DNA of 64,000 nucleotides from a virus: positions 1 through 64,000 of IMG/VR virus record IMGVR_UViG_3300028666_000022. The stretch is one strand, 5' to 3'. A model generated the notes under the pieces. That model was not told the DNA's origin. It did not search any database and saw only the letters and a list, made by a program, of their open reading frames with translations. Shown here one piece after another: positions 38,391 to 62,423 of the stretch. The translations under genes were made by a program, and so were the position numbers. The first letter of the stretch is position 1; every line of letters starts with the position of its first letter.

Positions 38391-38492
38391 ATGAAAAACA
38401 AAGAACTAAGATCAAAACTAAATTTAGAACTAAATTCAGAACTATATTCAGAACTAAGATCAGAACTAGATTCAGAACTAACTTCAATATAA
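38391..38492 (+). repeat. Short Ser-Glu-Leu-x repeat ORF
   Basis: 33-residue ORF ending NSELYSELRSELDSELTSI, made of 12-bp units close to TTCAGAACTAAA. The 3' end TTCAATATAAGAATTAATAA is shared with the ORF at 38670, so they are recent copies. No promoter of either class is obvious. Confidence 0.6.
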
Positions 38493-38669
38493 GAATTAAT
38501 AAATTATCCCATACTACCAACAATATTTAATATTAATTATTGTTACAAACTCAGTATTAATGCTATTTATTGAAAGGTTCATTAACAGTATGTTTTACAT
38601 ATTTTTATATAGTTAAAGTACAATTAAAACATAATTAACTTGGTTAAAATCAAATTTAGAAAAAGCATT

Positions 38670-38855
38670 ATGAAAAACAAAGAACTATATTCAGAACTAA
38701 ATTCAGAACTATATTCAGAACTAAGATCAGAACTAGATTCAGAACTATATTCAGAACTAAATTTAGAACTAAGATCAAAACTATATTCAGAACTATATTC
38801 AGAACTAAATTCAGAACTAGATTCAGAACTAAATTCAGAACTATCTTCAATATAA
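38670..38855 (+). repeat. Long Ser-Glu-Leu-x repeat ORF
   Basis: 61 residues with 14 tetrapeptides such as YSELNSELYSELRSEL. The opening MKNKEL matches the microprotein family. Pure repeat and lack of drift suggest recent expansion by slippage or unequal crossing-over. The opposite strand is also open here but only as a mirror of the repeat. Confidence 0.65.
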
Positions 38856-38876
38856 GAATTAATAAATTAACCTTCC

Positions 38877-38906
38877 TGTAACAAAAGATATTTATTCTCG
38901 TATAGT
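38877..38906 (+). promoter_or_regulatory. ECF-type promoter
   Basis: TGTAAC (38877-38882), 16 bases, CGTATAGT. Confidence 0.6.
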
Positions 38907-38933
38907 ATTTTATAAACCAAAAATAAAACTATT

Positions 38934-39392
38934 ATGACACCAGAAGAAATAATAAACGGGAATATATTAATAGCTGAATTTTTAAATTGGGACACCTGCG
39001 AATATATTCAAAGAATAACTAACTCAAAACATCCTTTATATAAGATTAAAAAAGAACCAATAACAGTTTTTTGTTTACCAATTGATCACCCTATTGTTAA
39101 CGATATCTATACAGATAGACCCGGATTTAGTTGGAATTATGACAAAGAAGATGAAAACGGGAATACTATAATAAGATTAATATTCTTTAATGAAGATTTA
39201 ATTTTTCACTCTTCATGGAATTGGTTAATACCAGTTATTGATAAAATTACCTCAACAAATGATTATTTTGATTTTAAAGATAAAACAACTAGCATTGTAG
39301 ATGAAGGAGGTATTTTTATTAATTACAGGTTTATTGAAAACACATTTGAGCAAGTAATAGAGTTTATTAAGTATTATAATAGTATTCAATAA
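38934..39392 (+). CDS. Conserved phage hypothetical
   Basis: 152 residues. The C-terminal half has FHSSWNWLIPVIDKI, a landmark I recall in phage hypotheticals. The N-terminus is MTPEEIINGNILIAEFLNWD. Unknown. Confidence 0.6.
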   Translation: MTPEEIINGNILIAEFLNWDTCEYIQRITNSKHPLYKIKKEPITVFCLPIDHPIVNDIYTDRPGFSWNYDKEDENGNTIIRLIFFNEDLIFHSSWNWLIPVIDKITSTNDYFDFKDKTTSIVDEGGIFINYRFIENTFEQVIEFIKYYNSIQ

Positions 39393-39407
39393 TATTATTT
39401 TAAAAAT

Positions 39408-39452
39408 AAGTGTTAAAAAATTAGGTTTTAAACTTTTCTTGTTATATATTTG
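39408..39452 (+). promoter_or_regulatory. Early-type promoter with AAGTGTTAAA box
   Basis: AAGTGTTAAA (39408-39417), then TATATTTG (39445-39452) and the leader. Confidence 0.65.
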
Positions 39453-39481
39453 TACTCATAAACCAATAAATAAAAAACATT

Positions 39482-40063
39482 ATGGAAACCAATACAAATT
39501 TATTAAAAGCATTAGCCTTAATGCAATTCTTAGGTAATAATTATATTCTAATTAATGATACTGAAGATCCTGATCTTTTTCAGGCTTTTGAAGGTAATGA
39601 AATAGAAGAAAGAGATAAATATATTTTATATTGTTTCGAAAAAAATCTTACTGAAGAAGATTTTACCTTTCTTGAGTTCTGTAATGAAAACCTTACCGAA
39701 GTAGAAGGAATTGAAGGCGATGAAGAAAGAGAGAATTATATGGTTTTAACTGATGAAGAAGCTCAAGAAAAAGTAACCGAATATATAAAAGAATCTATTT
39801 GGGCTTTTAATGCTGATTTTATTATCGGTGAATGTGAATTGGATTTTTCAGGTGAAAAAAGTTTACAAAAAATGCAAAGTGATTCTTGTGAAAATTGTAA
39901 CGATTTTTTACTATCATTAGTTGAAAAAACCTGTGGTATTGAGACATTTGTTGACGATGCAATAAGATCAGATGGTAGAGGCCATTTTATGAGTTCTTAT
40001 GATAGTAATGAAAATGAAGAAACTGTAGAAGGTGAAACATTTTATATTTATAGAATAAATTAA
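39482..40063 (+). CDS. Acidic conserved hypothetical
   Basis: 193 residues. DKYILYCFEKNLTEEDFTFL, VTEYIKESIWAFNADFI and DAIRSDGRGHFMSSYDSNE. I recall the family from phages and plasmids. pI is low. Function unknown; inhibition of a host nuclease is only a guess. Confidence 0.65.
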   Translation: METNTNLLKALALMQFLGNNYILINDTEDPDLFQAFEGNEIEERDKYILYCFEKNLTEEDFTFLEFCNENLTEVEGIEGDEERENYMVLTDEEAQEKVTEYIKESIWAFNADFIIGECELDFSGEKSLQKMQSDSCENCNDFLLSLVEKTCGIETFVDDAIRSDGRGHFMSSYDSNENEETVEGETFYIYRIN

Positions 40064-40085
40064 GTTTTCCTGCTTAAACTTAATA

Positions 40086-40125
40086 AAACACCTTAGATAA
40101 TTGTAACATTGTTTAAGGTGTTTAC
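40086..40125 (+). terminator. Terminator hairpin nested with a promoter
   Basis: AAACACCTTA pairs with TAAGGTGTTT. The loop holds the TGTAAC of the following ECF-type promoter (40102-40107), so the two signals share DNA. Confidence 0.55.
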
Positions 40126-40132
40126 GTATAAT
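40102..40132 (+). promoter_or_regulatory. ECF-type promoter
   Basis: TGTAAC (40102-40107), 17 bases, CGTATAAT. Confidence 0.6.
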
Positions 40133-40155
40133 GTACAAACCAAAATAATATGATT

Positions 40156-40550: not shown

Positions 40551-40578
40551 ATCAATGTACATAACTAATATTGTAATT

Positions 40579-43799: not shown

Positions 43800-43976
43800 A
43801 TGAAATATAATTCAATTGTATTATTAAAAAATAATGAACCAGTTAAACTATTTGATAACTGGTTCAATGCAGGTAAATGGACTGATGAGAATATTAAATC
43901 AGAACATACTTTATATTCATTTAAAAAACTTAATTATTTTAAATCATTATTATACAAATTAGAAATATGGTTATGA
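43800..43976 (+). CDS. Small hypothetical
   Basis: 58 residues, MKYNSIVLLKNNEPVKLFDN. It overlaps the next start by ATGA. Confidence 0.45.
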   Translation: MKYNSIVLLKNNEPVKLFDNWFNAGKWTDENIKSEHTLYSFKKLNYFKSLLYKLEIWL

Positions 43977-44191
43977 ATAAAATAAACTTTTCCATGAGTA
44001 GAATGTACAATTATTTTATTTTTTCGAAAACACTAGATAAAATAAAATCAACACTAAGAAGAGATTTAGATTCAAAACTAGAATCAGATCTATTTACTGA
44101 ATTATACTTAAAACTAGATTCAGAATTAGAAGTAGAATTCTATGATGAACTAGATTCAGATATAGCAAGATCTATTTACAAAATTATTTAA
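43973..44191 (+). CDS. x-x-E-L microprotein
   Basis: 72 residues. SKLESDLFTELYLKLDSEL shows L at every fourth residue and the register runs on through EVEFYDELDSDI, about eight repeats. One of the clearest bridges between the pure SEL tracts and diverged members. Confidence 0.65.
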   Translation: MNKINFSMSRMYNYFIFSKTLDKIKSTLRRDLDSKLESDLFTELYLKLDSELEVEFYDELDSDIARSIYKII

Positions 44192-44201
44192 ATAAAACCA
44201 A

Positions 44202-44411
44202 ATGAAAAATATTTTATTAAAAATTGGCGATACTGTAGAATTATATAATGGAACTAAAGGTACTGTTAGTGCTTTGAACTTAGAAACATATGAAATTGAA
44301 ATATCTAATCCAAATTCATATCCACAATGGTTTCATAAAATGAATATTAAAACCTTAAATAGTAAAGAAGTACTAGCTCAAGATTTAATAATTGAACCTT
44401 ATTTTTTGTAA
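44202..44411 (+). CDS. Small SH3/KOW-like protein
   Basis: 69 residues: LLKIGDTVELYNGTKGTVSA is a KOW-like beta turn. Its stop TAA is inside the next TGTAAC. Confidence 0.55.
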   Translation: MKNILLKIGDTVELYNGTKGTVSALNLETYEIEISNPNSYPQWFHKMNIKTLNSKEVLAQDLIIEPYFL

Positions 44412-44437
44412 CATTTCAATCTTATCTCACGTATAAT
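44407..44437 (+). promoter_or_regulatory. ECF-type promoter
   Basis: TGTAAC (44407-44412), 17 bases, CGTATAAT. Confidence 0.65.
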
Positions 44438-44453
44438 ATAAAAACAATACTAT

Positions 44454-44705
44454 ATGAAAACAATAATTGTAATTTCAATAATTTATCTTATTAGTTTTGT
44501 CGGTGCTTATTTCTTTATTAAAAAAGCATATTCTAAAAATGGTAAATGGTTTGATCTTAATCCAGATTTTGTTGATTTTTTAATTGTTATTTTACCTTTA
44601 AGTAATACAATATTAGGTTTTATGTTTATCTTTGGTGTTTGGAGAAAAGATAGAAAGAAATATGATCATAACCTATCTAAATTCTTTGGAGTTAAAAAAT
44701 TATAA
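44454..44705 (+). CDS. Membrane protein
   Basis: 83 residues with two spans (residues 3-22 and 40-63) and a basic end. Unknown. Confidence 0.55.
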   Translation: MKTIIVISIIYLISFVGAYFFIKKAYSKNGKWFDLNPDFVDFLIVILPLSNTILGFMFIFGVWRKDRKKYDHNLSKFFGVKKL

Positions 44706-44745
44706 TGATATTTACTTTTTTCATAATTGTTTGTTTGGTTTGTTT

Positions 44746-44785
44746 AACTCCCCTTCGGTTATTGGTTTACCTAGGGGAGTTTTAC
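44746..44785 (+). terminator. Intrinsic terminator
   Basis: AACTCCCC pairs with GGGGAGTT around a 20-base loop, then a T-run. The same stem, in longer form, occurs at 60190. Confidence 0.75.
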
Positions 44786-44807
44786 TGTTTTAAAAAGATT
44801 TGATGAG

Positions 44808-44948
44808 ATGGTAAATATTGAATACAATAAAAATTTTAACCTTAATTTTATTTTCAATGTCATTGATAATTTATATTTTACTTTAGTTGATTTAGTGCAG
44901 CAAGAAGGTAGAATGATATTTGCTTCTGAATTAGATGAGATAATATAA
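44808..44948 (+). CDS. x-x-E-L family-like microprotein, weak register
   Basis: 46 residues, MVNIEYNKNFNLNFIFNVID. Start and acidic end (ASELDEII) fit the family, but the four-residue phase is poor. First member of the 44.8-47.6 kb array. Confidence 0.45.
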   Translation: MVNIEYNKNFNLNFIFNVIDNLYFTLVDLVQQEGRMIFASELDEII

Positions 44949-44959
44949 TAACATGTCTT

Positions 44960-45124
44960 ATGAAGAATAAAATATTAGTTGATGCTTTACATCAAAAAGG
45001 AAATTATCTTAATATGGAAAATATTAATTTAAATGTAGATTTAAAAATGAGTTTTGGTGAAGATTTAGAGACATTTCACAGAGAATTTGATGTGGCATTA
45101 TTAATTTCATTATATAATAATTAA
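44960..45124 (+). CDS. x-x-E-L microprotein
   Basis: 54 residues. INLNVDLKMSFGEDLETF keeps the register for five steps (NL, DL, SF, DL, TF). Confidence 0.5.
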   Translation: MKNKILVDALHQKGNYLNMENINLNVDLKMSFGEDLETFHREFDVALLISLYNN

Positions 45125-45132
45125 ATAATTTT

Positions 45133-45354
45133 ATGAAAAATATAATTATTGATATTCTACTAAAAAGAGAACTATGTAAGATGAAAAGTATTATTAATTC
45201 TGTTCGAATGAATGATGATAACATAGAGGATTATTTAAATACTAATTTATATTTAATATTGAAAGCAAACTTAATATTTGAAATAAATAATGACTTTGGT
45301 ATTAATTTAGATACAGAACTAAGTTCTGATATAGATACTGAGTTTTTAAACTAA
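45133..45354 (+). CDS. x-x-E-L microprotein
   Basis: 73 residues. The end GINLDTELSSDIDTEFLN is in register; the first half (IIIDILLKRELCKMKSIIN) is more hydrophobic than in other members. Confidence 0.5.
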   Translation: MKNIIIDILLKRELCKMKSIINSVRMNDDNIEDYLNTNLYLILKANLIFEINNDFGINLDTELSSDIDTEFLN

Positions 45355-45361
45355 TTGCTAA

Positions 45362-45712
45362 ATGAAAAAGTTTATAATAGACATATACAATAATAAGTTT
45401 CAGTTATATTTGGGTTTTACTTTGGTATCTGAGTCTGGTTTTAGTATTGAGCAACCAGATGAATTTTTTAATGAAAAATATTTTACACTATATGAATTAA
45501 AGACATTAGAGGAATTTCAGAGACAAGGATTTGCAAAATATTTATTATATCAGATATTTGATTATGTAAAGAATGAACTTAGGATTAATATTATTACATT
45601 AATTGTTTATAAAAATAATCATAGTGCAGTAAATTTATATTTAGATAGTGGATTTGAAATATATAATGACTATGATGATTCATATTCACTAATAAAAACT
45701 TTTGTCTTATGA
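45362..45712 (+). CDS. GNAT acetyltransferase
   Basis: 116 residues. Motif A is EFQRQGFAKYLLYQIFDYVK (acetyl-CoA loop Q/RxxGxA) and motif B is NNHSAVNLYLDSGFEIYND. It is the only recognisable enzyme inside this microprotein array and is coupled by TTATGA to the next small ORF. Target unknown. Confidence 0.8.
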   Translation: MKKFIIDIYNNKFQLYLGFTLVSESGFSIEQPDEFFNEKYFTLYELKTLEEFQRQGFAKYLLYQIFDYVKNELRINIITLIVYKNNHSAVNLYLDSGFEIYNDYDDSYSLIKTFVL

Positions 45713-45876
45713 AAAATGAAGTTTTAAATAATAGTAATATGTTCTCTAATTTACATATGTTTCATAGTGAATTAGGTACTGACTTAGATTCTGAATTATT
45801 TTATAAAGTTTCAATTAGAAATGAATATGTTGAATTAAATGTTATTTTTTATGAGGAGTTAAATTTTGATAATTAA
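45709..45876 (+). CDS. x-x-E-L microprotein
   Basis: 55 residues. HSELGTDLDSELFYKV in the centre; it starts inside the stop of the acetyltransferase gene. Confidence 0.55.
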   Translation: MKNEVLNNSNMFSNLHMFHSELGTDLDSELFYKVSIRNEYVELNVIFYEELNFDN

Positions 45877-45892
45877 TTAAAATAGATATTAT

Positions 45893-46078
45893 ATGAATAA
45901 TATTGAAAATTTAAATAGTTTGGAAAATAATTTATTTTTGTTACATAATAGTTTTAATATATTAACAAATAATACTCTAGATTTAGATTTATACTTTTTC
46001 GTTGATAAAACATTATGTGAAGAAATGGAAGTTGTTATATCATTAATTGAATTAGAATTAAAGTATGAATTACATTAA
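45893..46078 (+). CDS. x-x-E-L microprotein
   Basis: 61 residues. NNTLDLDLYFFVDKTLCEEM keeps register through five steps, ending ELELKYELH. Confidence 0.55.
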   Translation: MNNIENLNSLENNLFLLHNSFNILTNNTLDLDLYFFVDKTLCEEMEVVISLIELELKYELH

Positions 46079-46090
46079 ATAAATTTAGTA

Positions 46091-46267
46091 ATGGTAAATA
46101 TTGAAAAAGAAATTTATTTGAAGAATAGTTATAATTTGTTTATATACTTATTAGAATGTTCTTTAGATTTTAAATTAGATGTTTATTTAAATGATAATTT
46201 ATATAATAATTTGAATGATGAATTAAGAATTGAATTAAGTAATATATTAAACGATGAGTTAAAATAG
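46091..46267 (+). CDS. x-x-E-L microprotein
   Basis: 58 residues. NDNLYNNLNDELRIELSNIL then NDELK, seven steps in register. MVNIEKEI start as at 44808. Confidence 0.6.
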   Translation: MVNIEKEIYLKNSYNLFIYLLECSLDFKLDVYLNDNLYNNLNDELRIELSNILNDELK

Positions 46268-46271
46268 GTAT

Positions 46272-46478
46272 ATGAAAAACAAAGAGATTGTTTTAAAGAA
46301 GAAAGGAAAATTATATTATTCATTTGGTTCTAAAGATATTGATTTAAATGATGGGTTAAATAATATGATTAGAAAATCTATTAATAATAAGCTTTATTTT
46401 GAATTTAATGAATTATATTCTGATATTAATAACAACATAAATGATTTAGATGGTGATTTGTTTCGAGAATTGAGGTAA
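46272..46478 (+). CDS. x-x-E-L microprotein
   Basis: 68 residues. NNKLYFEFNELYSDINNNIN in the middle and DGDLFRELR at the end. The N-terminus VLKKKGKLYYSFGSKDIDL is unusually basic. Confidence 0.5.
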   Translation: MKNKEIVLKKKGKLYYSFGSKDIDLNDGLNNMIRKSINNKLYFEFNELYSDINNNINDLDGDLFRELR

Positions 46479-46494
46479 ATATAATATTCGTATT

Positions 46495-46683
46495 ATGATT
46501 AACAAAGTAGAGTTTATATTTCATCATTTAGATATTTTACGTAGTGATTTGACTATTGATTTAGATGATAAATTAAAGTATAATTTTTCTATATTATTAA
46601 GTAGGAATTTATATATTAATTTACGTTTAGATATGAGTAATGAATTTGATGTTGAAATAGAAAATGATATAAAACAATTATAG
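46495..46683 (+). CDS. x-x-E-L microprotein, long register
   Basis: 62 residues. From DLDDKLKYNFSILLSRNL on to DVEIENDI the fourth position is L, L, F, L, L, L, M, F, I, I: ten consecutive steps. Confidence 0.6.
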   Translation: MINKVEFIFHHLDILRSDLTIDLDDKLKYNFSILLSRNLYINLRLDMSNEFDVEIENDIKQL

Positions 46684-46685
46684 TT

Positions 46686-46868
46686 ATGCTTAATAAAGTA
46701 ATAAAACTAGAATTAGCTGAATTTTTTGTCTATGGTTTAGGAAACGAAATAGAAAAAGAATTATCTATGACGAACTTATCCTATTGTAATTTAAGTTTAG
46801 AATTATATGATACTATATATGATAATTATAATAATTTGGATGACGAATTAAAGAATGATTTAAATTAA
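46686..46868 (+). CDS. x-x-E-L microprotein
   Basis: 60 residues, MLNKVIKLELAEFF; register seen in SLELYDTIYDNY and again in DDELKNDLN after a one-residue slip. Confidence 0.5.
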   Translation: MLNKVIKLELAEFFVYGLGNEIEKELSMTNLSYCNLSLELYDTIYDNYNNLDDELKNDLN

Positions 46869-46877
46869 TATATTCAT

Positions 46878-47063
46878 ATGAAAAACAATAAAACATTAGA
46901 GTTTGAATTAAGAAGTAATTTATATGCTAGATTAAATTCTATGTTTGATTTTAAATTTGATTTAATATGTGAATTAGATAGAAAATATAATTTAGATTTG
47001 AGGCAGGAAATTTTTATTGAATTTGATGATGAATTGACATGGAATGAAATAAATATTATATAA
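46878..47063 (+). CDS. x-x-E-L microprotein
   Basis: 61 residues. EFELRSNLYARLNSMFDFKF is in register for five steps; the end is more tryptophan- and isoleucine-rich. Confidence 0.55.
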   Translation: MKNNKTLEFELRSNLYARLNSMFDFKFDLICELDRKYNLDLRQEIFIEFDDELTWNEINII

Positions 47064-47068
47064 ATTGT

Positions 47069-47242
47069 ATGAAAAACATTGAACTTATACATTCATATCC
47101 TTTTACTTATAAATTATATGATCTTACTGATGATTTAATTATAGATACAATAAGCAGTAATTTAAATCATAAAACGTTTGATGATATTAATATAATTGAT
47201 TTAGATGAATTAAGATCAGAACTATCTTTAATATTAGAATAA
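47069..47242 (+). CDS. x-x-E-L microprotein
   Basis: 57 residues, MKNIELIHSYPFTYKLYDL start; the end DELRSELSLILE is in register and resembles the SEL tracts at DNA level (TCAGAACTATCTTTAATA). Confidence 0.55.
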   Translation: MKNIELIHSYPFTYKLYDLTDDLIIDTISSNLNHKTFDDINIIDLDELRSELSLILE

Positions 47243-47250
47243 ATATTTAT

Positions 47251-47448
47251 ATGGTTAATAAGGAAATAATTGGAGTAAATATAATAGAATTTGATGATTT
47301 ACTTCTTGTTGATTTAAAACAATTAAGGTTTAATGAAATTGAATACGGGCTTGATGATTATATTTATATTAATTTAATTAGAGATGTTTATAATACATTA
47401 CATAATGAATTAGAGATTATATTATGGGATGAAATAGAAATTATATAA
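47251..47448 (+). CDS. x-x-E-L microprotein
   Basis: 65 residues, MVNKEIIGVNIIEFDDLLLV. The register is broken in the middle but returns near the end (HNELEIILWDEIEII). Confidence 0.45.
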   Translation: MVNKEIIGVNIIEFDDLLLVDLKQLRFNEIEYGLDDYIYINLIRDVYNTLHNELEIILWDEIEII

Positions 47449-47453
47449 ATGAT

Positions 47454-47636
47454 ATGAAAAATTTTGAAACATGTCTTTTGCTTGAAAGGAAAATAAATCT
47501 GGATATTTATGATTCTTTATATAAAGATATATTAGGTGAAATCAGTTCTGTTTTATATTTTTATACATATGATAATGATTTGAGAATTGAGCTAACAACT
47601 GAATTAAATCGAGAATTAAAGTTTATGTTAGAATAA
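47454..47636 (+). CDS. x-x-E-L microprotein
   Basis: 60 residues. The end NDLRIELTTELNRELKFMLE is five perfect steps. Confidence 0.6.
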   Translation: MKNFETCLLLERKINLDIYDSLYKDILGEISSVLYFYTYDNDLRIELTTELNRELKFMLE

Positions 47637-47652
47637 TAAAATAATATGTTTT

Positions 47653-48153
47653 ATGGTTAATAAAGAAATTAAATTAGAATCTATTTCAGAATATTTTAAA
47701 TGGGAAATCACATTAGATTTAGATTTTGCATTAGATTCAAAAGGTAATTTAGTTAAAGACTCTAATGAATTAACAAAAGAATTTAAGATTGAATATCTTG
47801 ATGATATACCTCAAAATTATACCAGAGTTTATCTTTATGGTGTATTTGAAGTAATTAAGGATTGTATTAGATCAAATAAGAAATTTATAAAGTTTAATGA
47901 AGAACCAATACGTGTAATGATTAAAACCACTGATGATTGGTCACCAAATTTTGACAACAACAAAGTAAAATTATCTTATCTTGGATTAATAGCTAAAAAT
48001 ACATATAGAGTATGTATTTGGGGTGCTGATGATTGTGGAATGGAATATGATACTCCAAATAAAAATGATGCAAAAACAATGTTTGAAAAATTAAAACAAC
48101 AAGGAATTGTTACTAAAAAGGAATTGGAAAAATTAAAATTTAATTTTTGTTAA
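47653..48153 (+). CDS. Hypothetical with microprotein-like start
   Basis: 166 residues. The opening MVNKEIKLESISEYF resembles the preceding microproteins, but the rest is a different, folded protein (KLSYLGLIAKNTYRVCIWGA, later DAKTMFEKLKQQGI). It may have captured a family start by recombination. Function unknown. Confidence 0.55.
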   Translation: MVNKEIKLESISEYFKWEITLDLDFALDSKGNLVKDSNELTKEFKIEYLDDIPQNYTRVYLYGVFEVIKDCIRSNKKFIKFNEEPIRVMIKTTDDWSPNFDNNKVKLSYLGLIAKNTYRVCIWGADDCGMEYDTPNKNDAKTMFEKLKQQGIVTKKELEKLKFNFC

Positions 48154-48161
48154 GATATAAT

Positions 48162-48317
48162 ATGAAAAATAAAATTCTGATTCTTTGTTTTGATTCAAGT
48201 CTTTTTAGTGAGTTAACTACTGAAACATTACATATTCAGGATCATATATTTGGTTTTAATATGTATGTTGAAATTAATGACTTTGATGATATTTTAGAAT
48301 TAGAATTAAATTTGTAA
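48162..48317 (+). CDS. x-x-E-L microprotein
   Basis: 51 residues, ending INDFDDILELELNL. Its TAA stop is part of a TGTAAC that has no -10 partner, i.e. a decayed promoter. Confidence 0.5.
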   Translation: MKNKILILCFDSSLFSELTTETLHIQDHIFGFNMYVEINDFDDILELELNL

Positions 48318-50833: not shown

Positions 50834-50846
50834 AATATTATGATTT

Positions 50847-51044: not shown

Positions 51045-51050
51045 TGAAAT

Positions 51051-51215
51051 ATGAAAAATAATGTATTAGGTTCAGACGATGAATTAGAAGAGAAATTAAA
51101 TTATTCAATAGCCATGCCACTTGATGTATGGTTAAAAAATAGTATTTTCGATGAATTGGATGATGATGAATTTTTTATAAATTTTAATGATGAAATTGAA
51201 ATAATATTAAAATAA
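51051..51215 (+). CDS. x-x-E-L microprotein
   Basis: 54 residues, very acidic. MPLDVWLKNSIFDELDDDEF in the centre. Last member before the DUF6745 gene. Confidence 0.5.
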   Translation: MKNNVLGSDDELEEKLNYSIAMPLDVWLKNSIFDELDDDEFFINFNDEIEIILK

Positions 51216-51272: not shown

Positions 51273-52304
51273 ATGAAAACATTAGAAGATTTAACGCCCG
51301 AAATTAAGGCAAAAATTCCTATGTACAAAGAAAGATGTACTAAAGATCTATATTCCGGCGTGGAATATGATAATTTTAATCCTGAACAAAGTACTGCTTA
51401 TGTAGATAAGTTGTATGAGATATGTGGATTTGAAAAACCAGTTGTAATCTTTGCTGATGATCCAAATGATTACAAAAAGAAGTTAAAAGAACTTGAAAAA
51501 GGTAAGAAACTTCAGAAGGTATATGAACAGTATCTTAAGAAGAATAACTTGGAAAACGATGGTACAGTATTCGAAAATTGCAAATATGAGAATAAGTCTC
51601 ATTGGCTTTTCTTGTGTTCATCTTATCATAGAGTGTACCTAATGTGGTACAAGTTTATTCAAGATGAATTTCAAATAGATCATAAGAATAAAGATATTCT
51701 TAATTGGTTGTATGAAAATGCCAATAACAATATCGCTCGTTGTTTCTTTACAAAGATGTTTGTTCTTGTTCTTAGAATGCCTAAATACATTCATAGAAAT
51801 GCAATAGGTTTCCACAGTATAGATGGTGGTGCAATACATTGGCCTAATTATAATATGTATTACATTAATGGTCGTAGAATACCTGAAGATTTGTTCTTAA
51901 AAACAATCAATAAGGAACTTACTTTCGATGAGTTTATTAAGTTAACTGATGAAAATGTTAAGGGTTCATTGATAACTCTTATGAAAGAAAAGTTCGGAAA
52001 TGAATACTTAATGGCATTTCTTAATGCCAAAGTAATTGATGAACAAACTATTAATCATAGTAGTGGTTATAGTGAAGTAGTTAAACTTTGGCACACCAAT
52101 GAGAAATTTAGTTTTCTTGTTGATATTAACGGTGTTGAAAATCAACCTTATTCTTGGTTGGAACTTCATTGCCCCTCAACTGGTTCGATGTTTTTAATTG
52201 ATACCAGTGCTCACTTTGATAATGCAATAGAAGCTTGTAAGTATCATAGACCTCAACAAATTCCTGCTGAATTGAAATATGATTTCAATGAGTTTAACAA
52301 CTAA
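51273..52304 (+). CDS. DUF6745-like conserved protein
   Basis: 343 residues. Landmarks: VYLMWYKFIQDEF, GFHSIDGGAIHWPNYNMYYI, NGRRIPEDLF and a C-terminal block SWLELHCPSTGSMFLIDTSA. I recall this as a widespread protein of phages and bacteria without known activity. Codon use is less A/T-biased than the flanking microproteins. Its usual partner gene is at 54599, beyond an inserted array. Confidence 0.7.
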   Translation: MKTLEDLTPEIKAKIPMYKERCTKDLYSGVEYDNFNPEQSTAYVDKLYEICGFEKPVVIFADDPNDYKKKLKELEKGKKLQKVYEQYLKKNNLENDGTVFENCKYENKSHWLFLCSSYHRVYLMWYKFIQDEFQIDHKNKDILNWLYENANNNIARCFFTKMFVLVLRMPKYIHRNAIGFHSIDGGAIHWPNYNMYYINGRRIPEDLFLKTINKELTFDEFIKLTDENVKGSLITLMKEKFGNEYLMAFLNAKVIDEQTINHSSGYSEVVKLWHTNEKFSFLVDINGVENQPYSWLELHCPSTGSMFLIDTSAHFDNAIEACKYHRPQQIPAELKYDFNEFNN

Positions 52305-52449
52305 AAAGGTGTTTGAAAATAAGGAATTGGATAATGATCTTAAGTTATCCAATTCCTTATTTGATAATTTAAGACTAATGGATGATTTTAATATGTTGAA
52401 TTATGAAGAGCATATTGAATTGGGTAGTGAATTATGTTCCGATATATAA
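52288..52449 (+). CDS. x-x-E-L microprotein fused to DUF6745 3' DNA
   Basis: 53 residues. It starts inside the last codons of the previous gene (MSLTTKKVFENKELDNDLKL). The start sequence is repeated at 52450, which marks a tandem duplication. Repeats: NKELDNDL, NSLFDNL. Confidence 0.5.
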   Translation: MSLTTKKVFENKELDNDLKLSNSLFDNLRLMDDFNMLNYEEHIELGSELCSDI

Positions 52450-52454
52450 TTTCA

Positions 52455-52658
52455 ATGAATTTAACAACTAAAATGAAATTTGAGAATATAGAACTGGATT
52501 ATACTCTTCTGGAATTATCCTCCAGTTCTATGCTCATTGATTTAACTGATACATTTTCTTCAGATTTAGAATTTAGATTATTAACTAAAACAATTATAAT
52601 GTCAAACAGTGAAGAGTTTGTTGAATTAGCCGATAATTTATTTAATGAATTAAAATAA
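52455..52658 (+). CDS. x-x-E-L microprotein, duplicate of the previous
   Basis: 67 residues. MNLTTKMKFENIELDYTL aligns with MSLTTKKVFENKELDNDL of the neighbour, including the DNA TTTCAATGAATTTAACAA copied from the DUF6745 gene end. Later FSSDLEFRLLTKTI is in register. Confidence 0.55.
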   Translation: MNLTTKMKFENIELDYTLLELSSSSMLIDLTDTFSSDLEFRLLTKTIIMSNSEEFVELADNLFNELK

Positions 52659-52665
52659 TATTATT

Positions 52666-52854
52666 ATGTTTGATAATAAAGAAATAGATAACAGTTTATT
52701 TATTAATATGTTTTCATTTGAAAATGAATTAAGATATAATAAAATATCTAATGATTTAGATAATGTAATAAAAGAATTTGTTTTAAATAGTTTAAGAATT
52801 GAAATGTCTGTTGTATTAGGTTTAGTGTTTTATCTTGAAATAATTAATAATTAA
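52666..52854 (+). CDS. x-x-E-L microprotein
   Basis: 62 residues, MFDNKEIDNSLFINMFSFEN; NDLDNVIKEFVLNSLRIEM in register. Confidence 0.55.
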   Translation: MFDNKEIDNSLFINMFSFENELRYNKISNDLDNVIKEFVLNSLRIEMSVVLGLVFYLEIINN

Positions 52855-52863
52855 ATTCATAAT

Positions 52864-53049
52864 ATGAAAAATAATGAAATTGCTAATGAACTAGATATTC
52901 CAATATCTAATATAATCTCTCTAAAGATATGTAAAGAAAACAATAGATTTAGTGCCAATATATCATACAGCAAAATATTTGATTTAATGAATGATGAAAT
53001 ATTTATAGATTTACGTAATGCAATTTATTCTAATATAAGACATGAATAA
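52864..53049 (+). CDS. x-x-E-L microprotein
   Basis: 61 residues. FDLMNDEIFIDLRNAIYSNI is five exact steps near the end; the N-terminal half has more Ser and Lys. Confidence 0.55.
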   Translation: MKNNEIANELDIPISNIISLKICKENNRFSANISYSKIFDLMNDEIFIDLRNAIYSNIRHE

Positions 53050-53052
53050 TAA

Positions 53053-53232
53053 ATGAAAAATAATATACTAATAGAAAATGAATTTATTGCTCTAAATAAC
53101 ATGGGTGATAATTTTATTAATGATTTAATAAGTGGATTAAATTTTCATGATGCATTAACTGAGCTACGGTTAATGATAAGAGTTAATGATTTAGAAGAAA
53201 TATTTTTTAAAGATTTTGATTTTTTTAATTAA
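53053..53232 (+). CDS. x-x-E-L microprotein
   Basis: 59 residues, MKNNILIENEFIALNNMGDN; FINDLISGLNF and DALTELRL partly in register. Confidence 0.5.
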   Translation: MKNNILIENEFIALNNMGDNFINDLISGLNFHDALTELRLMIRVNDLEEIFFKDFDFFN

Positions 53233-53248
53233 AAATATAATATAAATA

Positions 53249-53434
53249 ATGAAATTTCAGAATATTGAAATTGTTGATATGTTTTTTAAAAAATCAAATA
53301 TGTTCTTTCAAGATTTAAAATACTCAATTTTAGATCTTAAGTTAGATGGAGAATTATTTGATAAAATTATATTTGAGGGAGATACAACATTATTGAACGA
53401 AATTGCTAATGATTTAGAAGATGAATTAAAATGA
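53249..53434 (+). CDS. x-x-E-L microprotein
   Basis: 61 residues. YSILDLKLDGELFDKIIFEG, then NEIANDLEDELK at the end. MKFQNIEI start resembles the member at 52455. Confidence 0.6.
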   Translation: MKFQNIEIVDMFFKKSNMFFQDLKYSILDLKLDGELFDKIIFEGDTTLLNEIANDLEDELK

Positions 53435-53610
53435 TTACTGAAACTAAGAACGATATTGAATTAAGAAAAATAAAACTATTGATTGAATCATTATATAATG
53501 ATTTATATATTAATATTCATATTGATTTAATGTTTAAAACCACCGATGAATTATTTGATGGATCATTAGGTGGATTAGAAAATGATATTGATAATGAATT
53601 AAAACAATGA
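53431..53610 (+). CDS. x-x-E-L microprotein
   Basis: 59 residues. NDLYINIHIDLMFKTTDELF holds register; ATGA couplings on both sides. Confidence 0.6.
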   Translation: MITETKNDIELRKIKLLIESLYNDLYINIHIDLMFKTTDELFDGSLGGLENDIDNELKQ

Positions 53611-53789
53611 ATAATAGTGATATTGCATTAGATTATATGTTATCAAAAAATAATTTTATTTTTAATAATGATTTTAATGTTAAATTAGATATGACACTAC
53701 AACATCAATTAATAAATCAACTTAGAATTAGATTATTTAGTGATTTATTAAATGAAGTTTACGATGAAACAGAAATAATAACCATATGA
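53607..53789 (+). CDS. x-x-E-L microprotein, long register
   Basis: 60 residues. VKLDMTLQHQLINQLRIRLF continues to SDLLNEV, seven steps. More Gln and Arg than other members, so the acidic character is not universal. Confidence 0.6.
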   Translation: MNNSDIALDYMLSKNNFIFNNDFNVKLDMTLQHQLINQLRIRLFSDLLNEVYDETEIITI

Positions 53790-53956
53790 AAAATTATGAA
53801 ATAAGTAAAATATTATCTTTTAAATTAGAATTTATTTCTGATATAACAGATAGATTTAATTATCATACTCATAAAAATATATATTTAGATTCTCTTGAAT
53901 TAATTGAACTTTTATTAGATGATTTAAATAGTGAGTTACAATTAGATTTAAAATAA
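53786..53956 (+). CDS. x-x-E-L microprotein
   Basis: 56 residues. The end LELIELLLDDLNSELQLDLK has five steps in register. Confidence 0.6.
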   Translation: MKNYEISKILSFKLEFISDITDRFNYHTHKNIYLDSLELIELLLDDLNSELQLDLK

Positions 53957-53960
53957 TAGA

Positions 53961-54140
53961 ATGAAAAATGTTACTCTTGAAGATTTGGATGAAAAAATAA
54001 TATTTCTTGATAATGATTTCGGATTATTTATGATTGAAATTTGCTCATATGGTTTAAATGATTATTTATATAGAGAATTTAATGAACTATTTGCAGATTT
54101 ATTTATAGAGATTAATAACGAAATTCAAATAAATAATTAA
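53961..54140 (+). CDS. x-x-E-L microprotein
   Basis: 59 residues, MKNVTLEDLDEKIIFLDNDF; FADLFIEINNEIQINN at the end. Confidence 0.55.
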   Translation: MKNVTLEDLDEKIIFLDNDFGLFMIEICSYGLNDYLYREFNELFADLFIEINNEIQINN

Positions 54141-54149
54141 ATTCATATT

Positions 54150-54356
54150 ATGAAAAATATTGAAATTGCAAACCGAAGGCAAAATATTAAAGCAATTATT
54201 AATTTGGAAGATAAATTACACGATTTTTTATATTCTTTCTTTAATGAAAATGATGAAATAAATATTGATTTACTCAATGAATTAGATCCAATCTTAAAAA
54301 ATAATTTACGAGAAGAGTTATTTAGTTTAAATATTGAAATCTTTATAATAATATAA
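54150..54356 (+). CDS. x-x-E-L microprotein
   Basis: 68 residues. LNELDPILKNNLREELFSLN in register; N-terminus MKNIEIANRRQNIKAI. Confidence 0.55.
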   Translation: MKNIEIANRRQNIKAIINLEDKLHDFLYSFFNENDEINIDLLNELDPILKNNLREELFSLNIEIFIII

Positions 54357-54364
54357 TATTGATT

Positions 54365-54526
54365 ATGAAAAACATTGAAATGCTTTTAGATTTAGAGTTA
54401 AAATTAGATCCTAATTCAGGTACTATATTATTTTTAGAATTAAGATCAGCAGTAAATTCAAAATTATTTAATTTATTCCCTTTTACAGAACAAGAATTAA
54501 TACTATATTTAGATATTGATATTTAA
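54365..54526 (+). CDS. x-x-E-L microprotein
   Basis: 53 residues, MKNIEMLLDLELKLDPNSGT; LFLELRSAVNSKLFNLF in register. Last member before the DUF6745 partner gene. Confidence 0.55.
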   Translation: MKNIEMLLDLELKLDPNSGTILFLELRSAVNSKLFNLFPFTEQELILYLDIDI

Positions 54527-54598: not shown

Positions 54599-54970
54599 AT
54601 GAAAATTCTAAAACAAGTAGGTCATCAAGGTGACACACAATGGTTTGCAATAGATGCAGTACCAGAAAATGCTAAGTTGTGTAAGAAACAATTTATTGCA
54701 GCAAGTGAAAAATCAGGCAACGTACATGCTCTTAGTGGAAATTACGATATGTACGAGTATGAGGACGGATTCGTAATTGATGTGAAAGATGATTGCGCAA
54801 TGCTTAATCATACAGCAATATCAGAACTTAACGAAAAAACTTGGAATAATCCTCAAGTACTTCCTCCACGTGATCATAGAAGTTCTGAGATTAAGAAGGG
54901 TGTTTATTTTGTAGGCATTCAAAGAAGGTTTAATCCTTTGAGTAAGCTTATGGAGAAAGTTAAGGATTAA
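54599..54970 (+). CDS. Conserved partner of the DUF6745-like protein
   Basis: 123 residues: MKILKQVGHQGDTQWFAIDA, KQFIAASEKSGNVHALSGNY, and GFVIDVKDDCAMLNHTAI. I recall it directly beside DUF6745 genes in other phages. Here 2.3 kb of microprotein array lies between them. Function unknown. Confidence 0.65.
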   Translation: MKILKQVGHQGDTQWFAIDAVPENAKLCKKQFIAASEKSGNVHALSGNYDMYEYEDGFVIDVKDDCAMLNHTAISELNEKTWNNPQVLPPRDHRSSEIKKGVYFVGIQRRFNPLSKLMEKVKD

Positions 54971-55028: not shown

Positions 55029-55241
55029 ATGGCTTTTGTTATTAAAAATGTAGGTATGAAATTTGAAAACTATATAGCAATTGATCAATTAGATAATATT
55101 TTATTTGATTATTTTAAAATATCGAAAGAAACCACATATAGTTTAGATAGATTTATTAATACTGAATTATTAATGGAGCTAAGAAATGAATTAGAAGATC
55201 AATTAGAAATTGAAACATATGAAAAATATTGTATTATTTGA
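55029..55241 (+). CDS. x-x-E-L microprotein
   Basis: 70 residues. NTELLMELRNELEDQLEIET is five steps. A start at 55056 (MKFENYIAIDQ) would match relatives better and give 61 residues. Confidence 0.55.
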   Translation: MAFVIKNVGMKFENYIAIDQLDNILFDYFKISKETTYSLDRFINTELLMELRNELEDQLEIETYEKYCII

Positions 55242-55383
55242 AGAATTAAATTCTAAGCTTATTATTGATGATGAATTAACTACATTAAATAATAAACTAA
55301 AATTTAATTTAAAACAAGCAATTAACCATCAAATTTTTGATGAATCATATTATTCATTAAGAAAAGAAATTATTAATGAATAA
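55219..55383 (+). CDS. x-x-E-L microprotein
   Basis: 54 residues, MKNIVLFEELNSKLIIDDEL; register moderate. It overlaps the previous member by 23 bases. Confidence 0.5.
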   Translation: MKNIVLFEELNSKLIIDDELTTLNNKLKFNLKQAINHQIFDESYYSLRKEIINE

Positions 55384-55390
55384 GAATAAC

Positions 55391-55522
55391 ATGAAAAATA
55401 CTATATTAAATAATAATTTGGATTATTCTTTAGATGGAGAATTACCAACAATATTAGTTGAAAATATTCACAATATATTAATGTTCGATGTTTTAATTAT
55501 TGATTTAGATATATTATTTTAA
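55391..55522 (+). CDS. x-x-E-L microprotein, short
   Basis: 43 residues. DYSLDGELPTILVENIHNIL in register despite a proline. Confidence 0.5.
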   Translation: MKNTILNNNLDYSLDGELPTILVENIHNILMFDVLIIDLDILF

Positions 55523-55523
55523 T

Positions 55524-55718
55524 ATGAAAAATATTGAAGCAGGAAATGTTATTACAGAAAATTCAATTTTTATTAATTTAATATTAATATCTTCTGATTT
55601 ATATAATACTTCGTGGAATGAACTAGATATAAAATTAATTAAATCAACTAGTTCTGATGATGAATTTAGAGGTGATCACATGAAAGAATTAAATGATGAA
55701 ATATCAGAAGAATTATAA
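55524..55718 (+). CDS. x-x-E-L microprotein
   Basis: 64 residues, MKNIEAGNVITENSIFINLI; SSDLYNTSWNELDIKLIKST in register. Confidence 0.5.
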   Translation: MKNIEAGNVITENSIFINLILISSDLYNTSWNELDIKLIKSTSSDDEFRGDHMKELNDEISEEL

Positions 55719-55722
55719 TAAT

Positions 55723-55908
55723 ATGAAAAATACAATATCTGTTGATGCATTAGATTATGTATTAACAAAAAAATATTTTGATGATATTTTATCTCAAAAA
55801 TTATCAATAAAATTATTTGGAGAAATTAATGAAAAATTATATGTTGAATTATTTACTGAACTAAATTTGGGTTTAGATCCAACAATTGGTTCAATTTTAG
55901 AAATATGA
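55723..55908 (+). CDS. x-x-E-L microprotein
   Basis: 61 residues. SIKLFGEINEKLYVELFTEL is five exact steps. The start at 55723 follows the previous stop; an upstream in-frame ATG at 55693 lies inside that gene. Confidence 0.6.
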   Translation: MKNTISVDALDYVLTKKYFDDILSQKLSIKLFGEINEKLYVELFTELNLGLDPTIGSILEI

Positions 55909-55912
55909 TTAT

Positions 55913-55943
55913 TGTAACAAAATGCATTTATTATTCGTATATC
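55913..55943 (+). promoter_or_regulatory. ECF-type promoter
   Basis: TGTAAC (55913-55918), 17 bases, CGTATATC. The only such promoter inside the 50-56 kb arrays. Confidence 0.6.
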
Positions 55944-55964
55944 AAAAGATAAAAATATAAAACT

Positions 55965-56153
55965 ATGAAAAATATTGAAATGGATCGGTGTGACATCATA
56001 GGAATTGAATTTCTATTAATGTCAACATTAAAAAATAATATATTTATTAATAGTAAGAATGCTTTATATTATGAAACAAAAAAAATTTTTATTTCTAACT
56101 TTAATGAAGATTTGGATATTATTCTTCGTGATGAATTACATAATAATCTGTAA
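55965..56153 (+). CDS. x-x-E-L microprotein with own ECF-type promoter
   Basis: 62 residues, MKNIEMDRCDIIGIEFLLMS, ending NEDLDIILRDELHNNL. It shows that at least one member is directly placed under this promoter class. The stop overlaps the next TGTAAC. Confidence 0.6.
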   Translation: MKNIEMDRCDIIGIEFLLMSTLKNNIFINSKNALYYETKKIFISNFNEDLDIILRDELHNNL

Positions 56154-60233: not shown

Positions 60234-60239
60234 TAATTT

Positions 60240-60269: not shown

Positions 60270-60301
60270 ATTTAAGGATATTAATTTAAACAAAATAATT
60301 T

Positions 60302-60478
60302 ATGAAAAATGTTGAACTAGAATTTAGTTTTGTTAATGATAAAAGAAAGTTATATGTTTGTTATTTACATGCATTTAGAACTGAAGATGGAGAAGCAAAA
60401 CTTACTACAGAATTAAAAACAGGAAATAAAATTTGGATTGATATTTCTGCTTTTACTACTGATGGATCGTTTAAATAA
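60302..60478 (+). CDS. Small hypothetical
   Basis: 58 residues, MKNVELEFSFVNDKRKLYVC, then a more ordinary beta-rich sequence without the four-residue register. The start resembles the microproteins, the body does not. Confidence 0.5.
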   Translation: MKNVELEFSFVNDKRKLYVCYLHAFRTEDGEAKLTTELKTGNKIWIDISAFTTDGSFK

Positions 60479-60509
60479 TACATTGTAATGAGTTAAAACT
60501 AACGGGTTT

Positions 60510-60701
60510 ATGAAAAATATTGAATATATCGTTGATTTAAATTTTATGCTTCCAAATAAAACAATTAAAATATATTGTATGAATAAAAATTTAACATTTA
60601 AATCATATAAAAAATTAAAAATTAATTTATTTGATGTATCTTATGATGAATTATATTTTGAATTATCAAGAATTTTCGAATTTGAATTAGATTATGAATA
60701 A
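60510..60701 (+). CDS. x-x-E-L microprotein
   Basis: 63 residues. YKKLKINLFDVSYDELYFEL in register; the opening MKNIEYIVDLNFMLPNKTIK is less acidic than most. Confidence 0.55.
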   Translation: MKNIEYIVDLNFMLPNKTIKIYCMNKNLTFKSYKKLKINLFDVSYDELYFELSRIFEFELDYE

Positions 60702-60891
60702 TGTTGAATTTGAATGTTATTTACTTAATAACATTAAGCTTCCATTTAATTATCCTCTAAATGATATTAATTTGACAAATCATTTATATGTTAATATAAA
60801 AACACAATTATTTGGTACATCATTTAATGAATTATTTTCTGATTTAAATAATGATATTGCTAATGATTTAAATTTAATTTATCGTTTGTAA
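60694..60891 (+). CDS. x-x-E-L microprotein
   Basis: 65 residues. FNELFSDLNNDIANDLNLIY; overlaps the previous member, and its TAA is in the next TGTAAC. Confidence 0.55.
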   Translation: MNNVEFECYLLNNIKLPFNYPLNDINLTNHLYVNIKTQLFGTSFNELFSDLNNDIANDLNLIYRL

Positions 60892-60916
60892 CAAAATGAA
60901 TTTTCATACGTATATT
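60887..60916 (+). promoter_or_regulatory. ECF-type promoter
   Basis: TGTAAC (60887-60892), 16 bases, CGTATATT. Confidence 0.65.
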
Positions 60917-60956
60917 ATAGAAACAAATATGTATTAACAATTAAAACAAAAATTTT

Positions 60957-61199
60957 ATGAAAACAAATACTATTGATCCAATAAAGTATTTTGATGATTT
61001 TTCAGATGAAGATTTATATACTATGGCAATGGAATTACAAGAACCATTTATTTCAAATGATGCTTTAATTAGAAAACATTCTGAAATTATCTACGGTAAA
61101 AGTAATTTAGTTAATTTCGTTGGTTTAGGAACAATATTGTGCAAAACATTAGCTTTTAGATTAAAAGAATATTCACCAAATTTAAATGAATTATTATGA
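60957..61199 (+). CDS. Small hypothetical
   Basis: 80 residues, MKTNTIDPIKYFDDFSDEDL; helical. ATGA coupling to the next gene. Confidence 0.5.
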   Translation: MKTNTIDPIKYFDDFSDEDLYTMAMELQEPFISNDALIRKHSEIIYGKSNLVNFVGLGTILCKTLAFRLKEYSPNLNELL

Positions 61200-61366
61200 A
61201 AAAACAATTTTCTCAATGTTTATTAATGTCGTTAGGACTTACAATAATATTTTTACCAATATTTTTTGGAATGATGTTGAATAAACCCTTTTTTGTTTTT
61301 GGTTTAGTGATTATAATGCCAATTGGATTACAAATTATTAATATAGCAATTAATGATGATATATAA
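61196..61366 (+). CDS. Membrane protein, tail possibly cut by a stop
   Basis: 56 residues with two spans (LLMSLGLTIIFLPIFFGMML and FVFGLVIIMPIGLQIINIAI). After the TAA the same frame stays open to 61429 and reads YLNKQISDLEERISELENED, a good coiled coil, so the C-terminus may have been lost by nonsense mutation. Confidence 0.5.
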   Translation: MKKQFSQCLLMSLGLTIIFLPIFFGMMLNKPFFVFGLVIIMPIGLQIINIAINDDI

Positions 61367-61459
61367 TACTTAAACAAACAAATATCTGATCTTGAAGAAA
61401 GAATTTCGGAATTAGAAAATGAAGATTAATACAATGTGCAACAAATAAAAACTAAAATT

Positions 61460-61726
61460 ATGGTAAGTCCAAAACTCTTCGAATCCCAGAAAACATCATG
61501 TTCTTGCTGTGGAGAACAAATGGAAAAAAATAATTGTTGTACCTATGAAAATGTATTGTATTGTGATAATTGTTTAAAAACAATAATAAAAAATGATCTT
61601 CAAAAATTAGAACAAAAAGTAAGTGAAGCAGAAAAGTTTGTAAGTTTAATTTATCCAATAAAATCAACTAATGTTTCATCTATTGACGATGTGATGTCAG
61701 GAACTACAATTAACATTAATCATTAA
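61460..61726 (+). CDS. Zinc-ribbon hypothetical
   Basis: 88 residues: CSCCGEQMEKNNCC and YCDNCLKTI supply a four-Cys site; a helix follows. The ATG at 61460 follows the AACAAATAAAAACTAAAATT leader. Confidence 0.55.
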   Translation: MVSPKLFESQKTSCSCCGEQMEKNNCCTYENVLYCDNCLKTIIKNDLQKLEQKVSEAEKFVSLIYPIKSTNVSSIDDVMSGTTININH

Positions 61727-61737
61727 AAATAATTTTT

Positions 61738-61893
61738 ATGAAAAAACAAACTTTATTTGCAATCGTTTGCGGTATTATGTTTGGTAACCTTACCAATGCA
61801 ATTGGACTTTCAATATTAAATCCCGGATTTTGGATTATTGTTCTTCTTGGTTCAGTACTTATGAATATCATTTATTTTAAATGTAAAAATTAG
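61738..61893 (+). CDS. Small membrane protein
   Basis: 51 residues, two spans, MKKQTLFAIVCGIMFGNLTN. It shares the MKKQ... start with the membrane gene at 61196. Confidence 0.5.
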   Translation: MKKQTLFAIVCGIMFGNLTNAIGLSILNPGFWIIVLLGSVLMNIIYFKCKN

Positions 61894-61899
61894 AATTCT

Positions 61900-61930
61900 T
61901 GTAACAATTGCAAGGATTTTTACGTATATT
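61900..61930 (+). promoter_or_regulatory. ECF-type promoter
   Basis: TGTAAC (61900-61905), 17 bases, CGTATATT. Confidence 0.6.
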
Positions 61931-61958
61931 ATATCATTAATAATTTAAAACCAAAGTC

Positions 61959-62234
61959 ATGCAAATAGAAGTAATAAAACAAATTGATGGTGAAAACAGA
62001 GAAACATATAGATTTAATATGTTTGATACAATTGCTGTTTTAGTTAGATATTTTAAAGAAAATAAACCAAAGGGCAAAAGAACATGGAAAATTGTAGCAT
62101 TTTGGGATACATATAATACTAGAGAATCTAAAATTGAAGAACCTGAGTTATCAGAATCAATTAGAAACGAAGCTTTAAATGAATTGTTTAAACTTTGTCA
62201 AGTAAAGACATGGGCAGAATGGAAATCTAAATAA
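61959..62234 (+). CDS. Small hypothetical
   Basis: 91 residues, YRFNMFDTIAVLVRYFKENK and a helical end. Unknown. Confidence 0.55.
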   Translation: MQIEVIKQIDGENRETYRFNMFDTIAVLVRYFKENKPKGKRTWKIVAFWDTYNTRESKIEEPELSESIRNEALNELFKLCQVKTWAEWKSK

Positions 62235-62243
62235 AGATATTAT

Positions 62244-62423
62244 ATGATTAATGATTATATTAGTTTAAATTATTGTTATAAAATTGATGGTGAAATTTAT
62301 AGAAAATTAGATTTTGAACTAGAATTTTCGTTAAATGTTTATTTAACAAATTCGTTAATTAATCAATTGCGCATTGAATTTGATAATGATTTAACTTCTG
62401 CTTTAATTAATGTAATGGAATAA
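62244..62423 (+). CDS. x-x-E-L microprotein, long register
   Basis: 59 residues. YRKLDFELEFSLNVYLTNSL continues INQLRIEFDNDLTSAL: ten steps in a row. The most distal member in the window. Confidence 0.6.
   Translation: MINDYISLNYCYKIDGEIYRKLDFELEFSLNVYLTNSLINQLRIEFDNDLTSALINVME

Follow-up and report, generated by a model that had tools for sequence, protein, structure and literature searches.

Why would a virus devote dozens of genes to tiny proteins built from a single four-residue repeat? The window analysed here, bases 1-64,000 of the 339,898-bp virus record IMGVR_UViG_3300028666_000022 (G000), contains 44 such microproteins of 33-74 amino acids (aa), and about ten further ones lie elsewhere in the genome. 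Our preferred answer, to which we assign a probability of roughly 0.6, is that each microprotein is a diverged, stand-alone copy of the hypervariable repeat arm of a DUF6745 protein, and that these separate arms serve an insert-less DUF6745 protein in a shared complex. The arrays flank a DUF6745-like gene (51273) and its small partner gene (54599), in the order array, DUF6745-like gene, array, partner, array. Neither this setting nor the identity of the repeat with the DUF6745 insert was part of the first-pass annotation of the window. The virus is taken to be a tailed jumbo phage because the window, which has a GC content of ~24%, encodes a T4-type RNA ligase/tail-fibre attachment protein and a ribonucleotide reductase; cultured relatives of one of its proteins include phages of Cellulophaga and Salinibacter. 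Phage G001 (334,326 bp) is a relative that shares 165 proteins with it and has a collinear (inverted) core; the 25-64 kb region of the window is mostly without counterpart there and is accessory.

The first-pass annotation had described about 44 microproteins with a degenerate tetrapeptide repeat, and this count was borne out: 38 of the 44 exceed a strict model threshold (log-likelihood ratio (LLR) >3 and z >2.5 versus the shuffles of each open reading frame (ORF) itself), and the other six are weak, hand-listed neighbours within the same arrays. The model is a four-state cyclic hidden Markov model trained on 41 small array ORFs, excluding the near-perfect genes 38391 and 38670; the training ORFs were picked by eye, hence we place weight on cross-validation and on a genome-wide scan. 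The period-4 model scored 300, versus 41-59 in residue-shuffled sets. Periods 3, 5, and 7 were no better than shuffles (period 5: 66 versus 51-68), and periods 2 and 6 exceeded them, as expected from a strong period-4 signal. Two-fold cross-validation gave summed z values of 16.5 and 21, and the autocorrelation of L/I/F peaked at lags 4, 8, and 12, with no peaks at 3, 7, or 11. Chance or composition as the source of the period is ruled out by the shuffles and the cross-validation; randomised sequences do not give it. Applied to the remaining 1,014 ORFs of the genome, the trained model flagged 13 at LLR >5, each with the appearance of a member and most of them in tandem (24454, 38391, 38670, two at 208.1 kb, one at 211.1 kb, two at 263.5 kb, and five at 326.5-327.4 kb), whereas the core region at 84-205 kb, with its 144 ORFs of 40-100 aa, yielded none. 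A similar threshold gave 48 matches in G001, and at least one of these is probably false (191723, which is orthologous to core gene 109146).

The arrays carry a clear coding signature. Plus-strand ORFs of at least 45 aa cover 94-97% of the four arrays, and dinucleotide shuffles average 1.7-3.5%. The array ORFs have a mean length of 60.5 +/- 6.4 aa, every one starts with ATG, and the spacing is mostly short with several -4 nt overlaps. The members in the window, together with the two neighbouring module genes and one core gene, are as follows.

2639..3178, + strand: core phage gene with a C-terminal acidic tetrad tail (~2963-3136)
24454..24615, + strand: outlier microprotein, 53 aa (model z 6.8, outside the training set)
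38391..38492, + strand: near-perfect X-S-E-L microprotein, 33 aa (codons NRN-TCA-GAA-CTA)
38670..38855, + strand: near-perfect X-S-E-L microprotein, 61 aa, with 13-14 units of a 12-bp repeat (z 13.1, outside the training set)
43967..48317, + strand: array 1, 15 microproteins, from the model and coding coverage (starts 43967, 44808, 44960, 45133, 45709, 45893, 46091, 46272, 46495, 46686, 46878, 47069, 47251, 47454, 48162)
50484..51215, + strand: array 2, 4 microproteins, immediately upstream of the DUF6745-like gene (starts 50484, 50663, 50847, 51051)
51273..52304, + strand: DUF6745-like gene, 343 aa, without tetrapeptide insert (homology chain, profile-profile comparison)
52279..54526, + strand: array 3, 12 microproteins, from the model and coding coverage (starts 52279, 52434, 52666, 52864, 53053, 53249, 53431, 53607, 53786, 53961, 54150, 54365)
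54599..54970, + strand: partner gene, 123 aa, with QGD...SGNVHAL (related to the small GHxH protein found alongside DUF6745)
55029..56153, + strand: array 4, 6 microproteins (starts 55029, 55219, 55376, 55524, 55693, 55965)
60302..60891, + strand: 3 microproteins (starts 60302 (weak), 60510, 60694)
62244..62423, + strand: microprotein of about ten steps, 59 aa (model z 9.4)

Small genes of other kinds, among them a GNAT-like one (45362-45712), interrupt array 1. Thirty-two of the 54 members in the genome lie within 6 kb of 51273, a span that makes up 3.5% of the genome. The outlier placed near 24466 and the fusion to a longer protein near 2690 in the first-pass annotation correspond to 24454 and 2639; the G001 orthologue of the latter is 80 aa long and stops just before the tetrad tail.

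From the degenerate members alone, the model learned the tetrad [N/D/Y]-[N/I/D/S]-E-[L/I/F], which reproduces the order of X-S-E-L (X being the variable residue) and finds 38391 and 38670 unaided. The family follows a strict four-residue X-polar-[EQ]-[LV] plan, and its original description as degenerate fits most members but not these two, which are near-perfect X-S-E-L proteins encoded by tandem 12-bp units. Three contigs from another metagenome carry MNKMNIFEI-(X-S-E-L)n genes, some in tandem, with the codons TCT-GAA-TTG; the motif is kept at the protein level and the codons differ from those of the window. The tetrad flavours seen in other phages are X-S-E-L, X-[DN]-Q-V, X-[GD]-Q-L, and X-N-T-L. 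A tblastn search of a phage collection with the low-complexity filter on returned no X-S-E-L relative, and a loose scan for xxEL patterns found mostly unrelated simple repeats and reverse frames. Matches of the arrays in Pfam, NCBIfam, and PHROGs (MSCRAMM, MgtE_N, Minor_tail_Z, and PHROG fragments) were low-complexity only, and a PDB sequence search with the repeat gave low-complexity matches or none.

The same type of repeat is found inserted in DUF6745 proteins, in roughly 10-60 copies, and it is through such a protein that 51273 is connected to the family. The protein encoded at 8095-9816 of record L075 is homologous to 51273 (8e-41); ~50 X-[SR]-E-L units separate its two conserved parts, the N-terminal one (53% identity) and the C-terminal one (37%). 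This protein is in turn related (1e-58) to G001 267044-268330, which scores above the PF20530 (DUF6745) cut-off and bears an X-[DN]-Q-V insert. A profile-profile comparison between the phage set and DUF6745 proteins of actinobacteria gave a probability of 99.2 (E 1.5e-19). Since the kinship of 51273 runs only via this homology chain and profile comparison, we call the gene DUF6745-like. Its orthologue in G001 is 57% identical, and the neighbour of that orthologue is 58.5% identical to the partner, 54599. The partner aligns with those of other modules, which match phrog_27831, a family listed without function. In record L440 (1240-2199), the DUF6745 frame seems to extend into the beginning of the partner gene, with the QGD motif at the C-terminus, which suggests a fusion or a frameshift between the two. 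The Pfam entry PF20530 covers the C-terminal domain only, as of unknown function, and the libraries, structures, and literature searched gave no function for DUF6745, the partner, or the repeat arm. DUF6745 is rare in the sampled cellular genomes, being found in 1 of 396 of the Bacteroidota group and 6 of 247 of the actinobacterial group.

Across other genomes, the arm occurs in two forms. A pattern scan of viral contigs found 45 fused phage ORFs, and fused arms are also present in gene 38 of the Mycobacterium prophage prophiGD102-1 (X-[GD]-Q-L, ~45 units) and in a Nocardia plasmid gene annotated as DUF6745 (X-[DA]-Q-V). The inserts of G001 267044, prophiGD102-1 gene 38, and the jumbo relatives G672/G673 sit at the corresponding point. 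Free-standing arrays in other phages consist of separate genes of ~50-100 aa with X-[DN]-Q-V or X-[DG]-Q-L units, and within one phage these have constant ends and a variable core (MNSVK..KEDxENE in L396, MPINNQV..HADQ in L399). Among 14 records with free-standing arrays, eight have a DUF6745 gene; all nine of their DUF6745 frames are short (289-343 aa), and those that were read lack the insert. The gene order is partner, DUF6745, array in L396; DUF6745, partner, array in L434; and partner, microprotein, DUF6745, array in L441. In the 36 records with fused arrays, by contrast, every match lies inside an ORF of 345-662 aa and none was found as a separate copy. The exclusion of fused and split forms across these 36 and eight records is strong (Fisher 5.6e-9), a value that ignores relatedness; the records are not independent of one another, and G690/G691 and G714/G715 look like near-duplicates.

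The jumbo phages vary in the same respect. In G672/G673 the homologue bears an X-N-T-L insert, the partner gene comes next, and no microprotein lies within ~20 kb. G678, of the same jumbo clade, has an insert-less DUF6745-like gene and five degenerate microproteins ~1.7-17 kb away, and the window phage has an insert-less gene, the partner, and ~54 microproteins. Most related jumbo records without a DUF6745 match also have no microprotein match in a search that is blind to strongly degenerate copies. The X-N-T-L flavour of G672/G673 (L526 751-2052) was seen nowhere else in our searches.

We propose that a two-gene accessory module, DUF6745 and its small GHxH partner, may carry the repeat arm either inserted in DUF6745 or, where DUF6745 has no insert, as separate ~60-aa genes arranged in a row next to it. 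In the window phage, the split form would have been amplified to ~54 copies and would have drifted from X-S-E-L to [NDY]-x-E-[LIF]. The separate arms may attach to the DUF6745 protein or work with it in one complex. The conserved scaffold of a unit would be the L/V that recurs every four residues, together with the E/Q before it, and X and the second residue would be the diversified face. The arms may be mostly alpha-helical: an AlphaFold2 model of an X-S-E-L array is a single long helix (pLDDT 90), and proline occurs in the array ORFs at 0.17 times its level in other genes; a structure search with the one-helix model was uninformative.

Several observations weigh against this explanation. The 51273 protein has no direct Pfam match over the PF20530 cut-off. 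Six of the 14 records with free-standing arrays have no DUF6745, and three of these are 80-103 kb long. G001 is mixed, with an insert-less and an insert-bearing DUF6745 as well as many free microproteins, and some microproteins of the window phage are far from 51273 (208, 211, 263, and 326 kb). The tetrads could have converged, xxEL repeats being common in unrelated sequences. The helix model has a pTM of 0.39 from a shallow alignment, the full-length L075 protein modelled poorly, a strict lag of 4 without lags 7 and 11 is odd for an ordinary amphipathic helix, and the Q-V flavour is rich in G and V. The records that lack DUF6745 would suit microproteins that act without it, inhibiting a range of host or defence factors on their own, with specificity set by X. 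The number, divergence, and short tandem layout of the genes and the hypervariability of X and the second residue are compatible with this, but the neighbourhood and the fused/split pattern tie most arrays to DUF6745 and there is no convincing PADLOC match, so we regard such inhibitors as unlikely.

The turnover of the arrays bears on their origin. Between 51273 and 54599 lie 12 microproteins, where the same neighbours are 123 bp apart in G001, and the five-gene array at 326.5-327.4 kb lies between genes that are adjacent in G001. The arrays contain long exact internal duplications and tandem 12-bp units, and new ones may form by slippage and unequal recombination of this unit. The codons of the tetrad units differ from phage to phage. 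In the younger Q-V arrays of other phages, Q has a single codon in all units (78 of 78, 100 of 100, 81 of 81, and 64 of 64), its third base being invariant or nearly so within each phage, and the third bases of V/L carry 0-1 bit. X and the second codon carry ~1.2-3.3 bits each, and X alone 2-3.3 bits; variation is confined to about five bases per 12-base unit. Plain purifying selection on the protein would leave synonymous variation, which is scarce, and plain slippage would homogenise X too, which is varied. The pattern fits a fast turnover of repeats in which diversity at X and the second residue is favoured by selection or produced by targeting. The early suggestion of selection for diversity is thus supported by the young arrays of relatives and not by the old arrays of the window, whose microproteins have no orthologues from which dN/dS could be calculated.

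The same data bear on the idea, also raised at the outset, of a coding repeat that spreads selfishly: a stop-free 12-bp unit would expand and decay in accessory DNA, with the ORFs as functionless by-products. The tandem units and exact duplications speak for it, as do the patchy presence (none in most related jumbo genomes) and the situation in G001, which has no arrays between the same neighbours and no detectable microprotein orthologues. However, the old arrays keep one frame open with uniform ~60-aa lengths, ATG starts, and -4 nt overlaps; the L and E positions are retained while the other two are randomised; the termini are constant across copies; and the arrays adjoin one particular pair of genes and are mutually exclusive with the fused form. 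An expanding 12-bp unit would account in part for the origin of the arrays; we consider it rather improbable that this is the whole account. Targeted hypermutation of the X positions, for example by a diversity-generating retroelement, would fit the confinement of variation to about five of twelve bases, but a reverse transcriptase (PF00078) was found in none of the 13 records searched and the CAA adenines are invariant, unlike in adenine mutagenesis; it is the least credible of the alternatives.

If the preferred reading of separate DUF6745 arms is right, their diversified face possibly recognises a variable target, most likely factors of the host or of competitors that are encountered in infection. 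More speculative still is a recognition polymer of four-residue modules, in which X and the second residue would form a readable specificity code against variable factors of the host or rival phages, and which would be deployed either as part of DUF6745 or as a set of dozens of separate microproteins.

Other features of the region deserve mention. GC skew peaks in the window at 46001-48000 (+0.44) because the array coding strand is poor in C. A TnpB-like (IS200/IS605-type) gene was called from sequence at 14850-16028; related proteins are located at 15672, 73990, and 78134 of the phage genome, and these match a single G001 gene (253851-255053). The protein at 41405-42379 matches homing/HNH endonuclease families and has paralogues at about eight more sites (121182, 142724, 164669, 247149, 250254, 256081, 314841), all of which match a single G001 protein (66611-68761).

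How does the repeat compare with known systems? The Pfam, PHROGs, NCBIfam, and PADLOC models tried include no family model for it, and literature searches on the repeat, DUF6745, and small-gene arrays found no description, in line with the initial statement that no family was known. Relative to these sources, it looks like an undescribed and rapidly changing protein module, not like sequence noise. Pentapeptide repeat proteins (Qnr, MfpA) also have a short-period repeat in which each unit places one hydrophobic residue at a regular position, but the period here is 4 and not 5, the five-residue score lies within the shuffles, and there is no Pfam pentapeptide match. Large phages can carry rows of short, fast-evolving accessory genes, which usually encode unrelated proteins, whereas here a single repeat family fills the row. 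No reverse transcriptase of the kind found in diversity-generating retroelements turned up in the 13 records searched, and there is no PADLOC match to anti-phage defence outside the low-complexity repeat. DUF6745 proteins (PF20530) with tetrapeptide inserts share the repeat type and the partner gene, 51273 being a diverged relative, yet neither their repeat arm nor free-standing arrays were found described. So simple a repeat has a fixed scaffold with hypervariable positions and comes in two interchangeable architectures, in phages unrelated to each other as well as in a prophage of an actinobacterium and a plasmid. This combination points to a module for recognition or binding, for which the searches yielded no published assay; the fused and split forms and the partner gene offer a concrete handle on a protein family of unknown function, and account for a class of tiny phage genes often dropped as noise in annotation.

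Among described repeats, the closest is TAEL in the type IC specificity subunit HsdS (EcoR124I/II), a helical, copy-number-variable spacer with a 12-bp unit and 2-3 copies (PMC3874165). The repeat region of the PADLOC Specificity_I model gives matches to the L075 array (4.7e-24) and to 38670 (1.4e-7), and the microproteins could accordingly be imagined as mimics of the TAEL helix that block assembly of host restriction enzymes. This is very improbable: the match is a low-complexity stretch only, the Q-V, Q-L, and T-L flavours are unlike TAEL, and the HsdS tetrad is uniform where X is hypervariable here. An HsdS-like protein of Haemophilus haemolyticus (L165 3217-4488) has ten identical TSEL repeats, versus the 2-3 TAEL copies of EcoR124I/II. 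The target recognition domains that surround the repeat in HsdS are missing, as the microproteins are the repeat alone and the L075 flanks are DUF6745-like. Both systems thus have a 12-bp unit that encodes a tetrapeptide ending in E-L, but the TAEL copies are uniform within the S subunit, whereas the repeat described here runs to 8-60 copies with a hypervariable X and is either fused to DUF6745 or free.

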